The translations under genes and the position numbers were made by a program. Below are positions 19,350 to 41,385 of a DNA stretch of 64,000 nucleotides, piece after piece. The notes below the pieces were generated by a model that searched no databases, was not told the DNA's origin, and saw nothing but the letters and a program-made list of their open reading frames with translations. The stretch comes from Collinsella sp. BG-O-102 (lineage in GTDB: Bacteria; Actinomycetota; Coriobacteriia; Coriobacteriales; Coriobacteriaceae), in assembly GCF_023656745.1 (NCBI RefSeq), contig NZ_JAMOKO010000008.1, positions 1 to 64,000 on the forward strand. Reading direction: 5' to 3'. Numbering within the stretch: the first letter of the stretch is position 1; each line of letters starts with the position of its first letter.

Positions 19350-19360
19350 TCGAATGTCCG

Positions 19361-19462
19361 CCGCTCTGCCGGAGCCGCCCTTATATCATTCCATGCTCAA
19401 ACATTCTCGCTTCGCTGCGAAACTGCGCGTGGAACGATATAAGGGCGGCTCCGGCAGAGCGG
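19361..19462. repeat. Foldback element, family 1, copy 1
   Basis: A perfect 27-bp inverted repeat (19361-19387 with 19436-19462) encloses a 48-base core that starts ATTCCATGCTCAAACATTCT. The same core, inverted and 9 bases longer, occurs at 19646-19702 inside different arms. Only the innermost TATATC/GATATA of the arms is shared. It lies in the 392-base gap between the convergent glycosyltransferase and dut genes, which otherwise holds one further hairpin. Confidence 0.8.
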
Positions 19463-19540
19463 CTGCGTTTACTTACTAGCAGCTACTTCGGTATCCCCTC
19501 CATTAGAACCTGCAAAGGTAAAACAGGTAAATATAAATAC

Positions 19541-19589
19541 AGTAAGCCGATGCGACAAAGGGACAGCCCCTTTGTCGCATCGGCTTACT
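19541..19589. terminator. 22-bp hairpin between two foldback elements
   Basis: Bases 19541-19562 pair perfectly with 19568-19589 around the loop ACAGC. The inner part GACAAAGGGACAGCCCCTTT resembles the core of the terminator at 16171. It lies midway between convergent genes and probably ends transcription in both directions, although neither side has a long T-run. Confidence 0.55.
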
Positions 19590-19622
19590 AGAAAAGTAAA
19601 TATTGTTTCAAGCGAGTAGCCG

Positions 19623-19725
19623 CCCGCCCGGGGCTTACCTATATCGTTCCACGCGCAGTTTCGCAGCGAGCGAAGCGACGCGAGAATGTTTGAGCATGGA
19701 ATGATATAGGTAAGCCCCGGGCGGG
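19623..19725. repeat. Foldback element, family 1, copy 2 (inverted)
   Basis: A perfect 23-bp inverted repeat (19623-19645 with 19703-19725) encloses a 57-base core. Its reverse complement equals the core of the element at 19361 except for 9 extra bases in the central GCGTCGCTTCG stretch. The arms (CCCGCCCGGGGCTTACCTAT...) are unrelated to those of the other copy apart from the inner TATATC. Confidence 0.8.
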
Positions 19726-19741
19726 AGGGATACGAGCGCCC

Positions 19742-40920: not shown

Positions 40921-41063
40921 GGTCTGGGGCCATCGGGGGCCGGGGCGGGTTAAGTTTGCTGCTCTACAGTCCTGCGCAAGACGAAAAGCACATTAAGTGC
41001 TTTCCTTTGCGTGCGGAACTCGCGACAAACTTAACCCGCCCCGGCCCCCGATGGCCCCAGACC
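40921..41063. repeat. Foldback element, family 2, copy 1
   Basis: A perfect 38-bp inverted repeat (40921-40958 with 41026-41063) surrounds a 67-base core beginning CTGCTCTACAGTCCTG. The core contains its own perfect stem, AAAGCAC-ATTAA-GTGCTTT (40985-41003). An inverted relative lies at 41191-41339 with different arms. Both are in the 653-base gap 40733-41385 between rnj and pnp, which carries no gene. Confidence 0.85.
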
Positions 41064-41190
41064 TGACAAATAGGGACAGGTTTATTTTGGTCGGTTGTAT
41101 CTGGGGTAATGCCGCACATGCGTTTATCTAAAGATCTGAATTCATATAACTGAATAGACTGTCTGACAAAATCGAAACCCGCATCAACCA

Positions 41191-41339
41191 GCCCTTTTGC
41201 TATTCCCGGCGGGGTCCGCGGATAAAGTTTATCGCGAGTTCCGCACGAACAGGAGACCACTTAATGTGGCCTCCGTCGTGAGCAGGACTGTAGAGCAGGA
41301 AACTTTATCCGCGGACCCCGCCGGGAATAGCAAAAGGGC
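41191..41339. repeat. Foldback element, family 2, copy 2 (inverted)
   Basis: A perfect 40-bp inverted repeat (41191-41230 with 41300-41339) surrounds a 69-base core that is the inverted, diverged copy of the core at 40959. The shared parts include CTGCTCTACAGTCCTGC, CACATTAAGTG and GTGCGGAACTCGCGA. The arms share only the innermost AAAGTTT-like bases with the other copy. The outermost four bases of the right arm coincide with the stem of the pnp terminator. Confidence 0.85.
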
Positions 41340-41360
41340 GACCCCAGTCCGGAGTCGCCC
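41336..41360 (-). terminator. Terminator of pnp
   Basis: GGGCGAC (41336-41342) pairs with GTCGCCC (41354-41360), and on the minus strand the hairpin is followed by TTTT. It lies 25 bases after the pnp stop. The T-run is part of the neighbouring foldback arm. Confidence 0.8.
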
Positions 41361-41385
41361 TTGTTGAGCTGCTTATGTGTAGCTG

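Follow-up and report, generated by a model that had tools for sequence, protein, structure and literature searches.

The window (the whole stretch of 64,000 nucleotides that was analyzed) contains two opposed foldback elements, A (positions 40921–41063, plus strand) and B (41191–41339, minus strand), separated by a spacer at 41064–41190. Element A has a G-rich left arm of 38 nt (40921–40958), a core of 67 nt (40959–41025) that reads CTGCTCTACAGTCC..CACATTAAGTG..GCGGAACTCGCGA, and a right arm (41026–41063) that is 100% complementary to the left one, all on the plus strand. In B, read on the minus strand in the orientation of its core, a left arm of 40 nt (41300–41339) and an equally perfect complement, the right arm (41191–41230), enclose a core of 69 nt (41231–41299). 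The outer end of the B left arm, GCCCTTTTGC, belongs to the pnp terminator, supplying its 3' half and its T-run; this end is overlapped by a terminator-like hairpin downstream of pnp (41334–41362, inverted repeat I5). The two cores are 83% identical over 95 nt in opposite orientation and resemble those of the other copies in this genome, with key positions shared across the order. The small stem within the core, read outward from an ATTAA loop, is CACGAAAAG/GTGCTTTCC in A and CACCGGAGG/GTGGTCTCC in B; both sides are altered at pairs 4 and 6, and pair 5 of B is G.T. The initial annotation had described this arrangement, namely an opposed pair with a shared core, separate perfect arms, and a covarying stem with compensatory pairs 4 and 6 and a wobble at pair 5, and both the geometry and the stem agree with our reading, which adds an A.C mismatch at pair 8 of A. 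The spacer contains GGGACAGGTTTATTTTGGTC (41073–41092), which occurs once in the window and again to the right of another copy in this genome (locus L019), and may be part of a separate dispersed repeat.

A BLAST search with element A against its own genome (2.27 Mb) gave 27 matches, three of them in the window, and 27 own-genome copies were extracted as the basis of a covariance model, R1. In the window, this model matches only A (40942–41042, E = 4e-30) and B (41215–41315 on the minus strand, E = 1.4e-28), apart from weak matches to the reverse strands of both, and it finds 47–53 matches in the whole genome; thus, a chance origin is excluded. About two dozen close genomes contain 38–57 model matches each, genomes of the C. 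aerofaciens group have about 47–57, and other Collinsella contain 0–36. Further afield, matches were found in five of the six genera sampled from the family and in 33 of the 89 Coriobacteriales genera sampled, so the search of Collinsella and other Coriobacteriia that the initial annotation had proposed did turn up further copies. A pattern scan of named genomes detected the element in Collinsella (mostly C. aerofaciens) and in Tractidigestivibacter montrealensis. The sites at thrB, leuS, and a DUF711-like gene (names taken from inspected translated starts) are occupied in distant Collinsella too. The Rfam scan of the window gave no match at the gathering score, a scan of three copies of the element up to E = 5 gave nothing meaningful, and no phage matched the elements. 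Among plasmids, the sole match was a 900-kb C. aerofaciens record with housekeeping genes, and no ordinary plasmid was matched. This record, NZ_OY725717.1, is labeled a plasmid, carries pnp, recA, rpsO, era, and other housekeeping genes, and is probably a piece of chromosome. The initial annotation knew of no named element of this design, and the literature that we searched describes none. We regard the elements as an apparently undescribed family of palindromic repeats that are dispersed between the genes of Coriobacteriales.

The part of the core that is constant across the order consists of TGC-TCRRAC-AGTCC, then a hairpin, then GGAACT-S-GC. When paired by inspection, it holds an asymmetric internal loop with approximately six bases (TCRRAC) opposite one. 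The same loop is present in two other elements of the window, which are probably the two copies of a group termed 'family 1' (A and B being 'family 2'). The first, at 19360–19463 on the plus strand, combines the loop, TGCTCAAACA..AACTGCGCG, with a different and shorter inner hairpin, and the second, at 19620–19728 on the minus strand, has the opposite orientation. In a related genome, G002, a copy at 632938 has the loop of family 1 together with the inner hairpin of family 2. This bridging copy and the common loop indicate that families 1 and 2 are branches of one family. Another G002 copy of the family-1 type (1618985) also carries arms that are private to it. In the window, a palindrome, GCCGATGCGACAAAGGGACAGCCCCTTTGTCGCATCGGC (19555–19590), lies between the pair of family-1 elements; it resembles the GACAAAGGGACAG..TTTGTC palindrome beside a further copy in the same genome (L022). 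A candidate conserved motif to the right of the right arm, GTTGACT, was dropped, as it was present in only 4–7 of 71 cases.

The sites of these elements are old, whereas their arms are not fixed. Defining the same site by shared flanking k-mers, and with 86% of the G002 genome covered, we found that each of the 25 own-genome copies open to comparison sits at a site that holds an element in G002 as well. The site of element A carries unrelated arms in other species. At the 25 sites, the arms of the two genomes range from identical to unrelated while retaining their pairing, and some sites keep the outer 8–9 bases and have the inner arm swapped on both sides. Left arms from different sites have a median identity of 0.50 (99th percentile, 0.69), which supports the earlier claim that arms are private to each locus; for pairs from the same site, identity spans 0.29 to 0.97 (10th to 90th percentile). 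In a per-site comparison, conservation of the arms (0.78) falls below that of the left flanks (0.875) in 22 of 26 cases. The variability of the arms is about that of the right flanks (0.80). Core identity within a site (0.885) is slightly above that between sites (0.852), which suggests exchange. Arms are broken or do not match in 11 of 172 elements, and several of these clearly join two alleles that are found whole in other genomes, an indication of recombination within the core. At one site (L021), G000 and G002 have the core in opposite orientations, a single case that wholesale replacement may also explain.

An in silico search for joined flanks revealed no insertion polymorphism; it yielded three candidate empty sites, none of them clean. 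One has a partial left arm, one has one arm, and the third has both arms without a core, on a contig of a low-completeness genome. Because remnants of arms remain, these empty-looking alleles look like losses, and the pnp-rnj region of another genome (G001, L081) is also deletion-like. In G002, near 1550220–1550454 and 1470358–1470604, the left half has been lost or the left arm replaced, and each site adjoins approximately 100 nt of other, foldback-like sequence, perhaps another repeat inserted alongside.

The elements could be non-autonomous mobile hairpins of the REP/MITE type that depend on a transposase, for example a Y1 REP-associated tyrosine transposase, and whose new copies insert into or replace existing hairpins; this would explain the new arms and the reversed core at fixed sites, and it suits a dispersed multicopy family with opposed pairs as in BIMEs. 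Y1_Tnp is present in 39 of 45 Collinsella, and the copy number of the element correlates with it (Spearman 0.46); however, this correlation is confounded by ancestry and is gone within the high-copy clade. No Y1_Tnp match was found in G019 and G017, which carry 23 and 13 copies, respectively, and Y1_Tnp was therefore rejected as a requirement. Since a mobile element would be expected to have constant arms, and neither insertion polymorphism nor an empty-looking allele free of arm remnants was seen, we consider this explanation improbable. Past mobility is likely, because the copies are dispersed.

The origin of the arms can be approached through their composition. The G+C content of the arms is approximately 77%, as opposed to 50–54% in the flanks, so most of the arm sequence is not newly copied from the surrounding DNA. 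Left arms contain more G than C (0.46 versus 0.32) and more T than A (0.14 versus 0.09), and at distant loci G also exceeds C (0.48 versus 0.25). Outside the arms, the left and right flanks share inverted matches of 10 nt or more at 6 of 35 sites, compared with 1% in swapped flanks; these matches are often equidistant, or nearly so, on the two sides. At distant loci, where orthologous loci inflate the swapped-flank null, early coding sequence of thrB has outer inverted copies of 29 nt (L055) and 18 nt (L091), which lie across the hairpin, outside the arms and upstream of the thrB start, and L090 has a 17-nt inverted copy of the 3' end of another gene. The initial annotation had suggested that the core either enters inverted duplications or generates them. 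If the core duplicated its target in inverted form at each insertion, private arms would follow, and both the inverted flanking copies at some loci, certain of them of coding DNA, and the terminator sequence at the outer end of B would be accounted for; that part of the suggestion has some counterpart in the data. However, arm composition is unlike that of the flanks, the sites are stable across species, and a single site can have different arms in different species although no new site has arisen; turnover of arms without loss of the core is largely seen already. The comparisons between copies and with empty sites, also proposed in the initial annotation, uncovered these differing arms and no clean empty site. 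On this evidence, insertion with inverted target duplication is very improbable.

The covariation of the arms might also be taken as the mark of a structured RNA, and the initial annotation had seen in the covarying stem an implication of selection on folded RNA or single-stranded DNA. Selection for pairing in an RNA would be expected to tolerate G.U more than A.C. We counted mismatches in 149 unique elements with 4,682 arm pairs, using arms found by a score that weighs all mismatches alike and hence leaves the comparison of G.T with A.C unbiased, although copies from the same site are related and not independent. The 103 mismatches in the arms comprise 24 G.T or T.G, 33 A.C or C.A, and 46 others, and in the core stem there are 4 G.T and 4 A.C mismatches. 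Among same-site alleles that could be aligned, 71 changes are mirrored in the opposite arm, 89 are one-sided, and 21 are two-sided but unpaired. For 33 of the 71 mirrored changes there is no possible wobble intermediate (14 from C-G to G-C, 9 from G-C to T-A, 5 from A-T to C-G, and 5 from A-T to T-A). At the B site, a single position occurs in the states C-G, A.G, and A-T (in L064, L061, and L067, respectively). With no excess of wobble pairs and with mirrored changes that lack a wobble intermediate, the arm covariation does not indicate selection on RNA, and the earlier implication is not supported.

An RNA with selected base pairing, acting as a 3'-UTR stabilizer, a processing site, or a small RNA, nevertheless has points in its favor: the internal loop is conserved across the order, both sides change in 18 of 26 consensus pairs, and many elements lie 2–45 nt after a co-oriented stop codon. 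The stop-codon counts are based on crude gene calls, and some copies are antisense and upstream of a start codon (thrB, cysS, and leuS), so a 3'-UTR function is only possible. Frequent mirrored transversions, elements with non-matching arms, and the lack of an Rfam family add to the mismatch counts in making a structured RNA unlikely, if still worth bearing in mind.

The reading that we favor, with a probability of roughly 0.6, is that the arms have been rewritten by template switching from arm to arm while selection has kept the mismatches of the loop, in what would now be a REP-like repeat family. This reading is drawn from extant alleles. A hairpin, formed in single-stranded DNA or as a cruciform during replication, would provoke the DNA polymerase to switch templates between the arms, and mutations as well as mismatches made by recombination would be copied from one arm onto the other. 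Such copying could keep the arms of an element perfect while they diverge from those of its relatives beyond recognition. At times, switching may also copy flanking DNA across the hairpin, and core exchange between alleles would yield new combinations of arms. The element would by now be mostly immobile. Known outcomes of template switching between inverted repeats are arm homogenization and spacer inversion (PMC8604942), and both the homogenized arms and the reversed core at L021 are what it predicts. Template switching has also been put forward as a process that generates and preserves hairpins and that gives rise to an asymmetry of G-C and U-A in stems (PMC8794818), and the excess of G over C and of T over A on the 5' arm is the asymmetry ascribed there to directional template switching. 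Homogenization must be far from instant, given the 89 one-sided changes. Plain copying does not explain the high G+C content and the G-rich left arm, which could reflect selection for stability. A bias in replication direction, predicted by some template-switch models, was not evident by eye from the G002 positions and dnaA.

The mismatches of the loop persist despite the homogenization of the arms. Because it survives this process and is shared with family 1, the asymmetric loop is probably a functional recognition site, and it looks as if the mismatched internal loop, and not the stem, is what has been selected, probably for binding by a host protein or by a protein that formerly mobilized the element. 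More speculatively, and we would not expect it, a dedicated protein, either a nuclease or one resembling single-stranded DNA transposases, could bind the loop, open the hairpins, and drive both the rewriting of arms and the exchange of cores. If so, Coriobacteriales would possess an order-wide DNA-hairpin system in which the identity of an element resides in its loop and the arms are rewritten site by site.

It is routine to read covariation as proving that an RNA structure is under selection. In this family, strong covariation without a wobble signature, together with mirrored transversions and one reversed core, suggests that the same pattern can come from copying at the DNA level, which calls for caution in automated RNA discovery. 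The family offers many replicate loci per genome for measuring natural template switching. It also represents an apparently undescribed dispersed element that extends across an order of common gut bacteria, and its conserved loop motif makes a search for a binding partner feasible.

Several known systems share features with this family. The Collinsella-1 RNA (listed in PMC2864571) is likewise a candidate structure, reported from Collinsella and from the human gut, but our Rfam searches, at the gathering score in the window and up to E = 5 with three copies, did not link the two. ERIC, BOX, RUP, and other MITE-like repeats of bacteria are also small, noncoding, dispersed foldback units; their terminal repeats, however, are conserved between copies, whereas the arms described here are private. 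REP/BIME sequences and their tyrosine transposases (RAYT; PMC2817692) come closer: they too are short intergenic palindromes with tens of copies, frequently near gene ends and often in opposed pairs. On the other hand, REP stems are conserved between copies, while here the core loop alone is shared, and REP has a RAYT partner, whereas two genomes that carry 13 and 23 copies of our element lack Y1_Tnp. Quasipalindrome correction and template-switch mutation, described in E. coli, yeast, and rRNA (PMC7202029, PMC8604942, PMC8794818), share with this family the homogenization of arms, mirrored multi-base changes, and the G-C and T-A asymmetry; their inversion of spacers may have a counterpart in the reversed core at L021. 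Those events occur at scattered loci, whereas here they would involve a whole dispersed family built around a conserved core.
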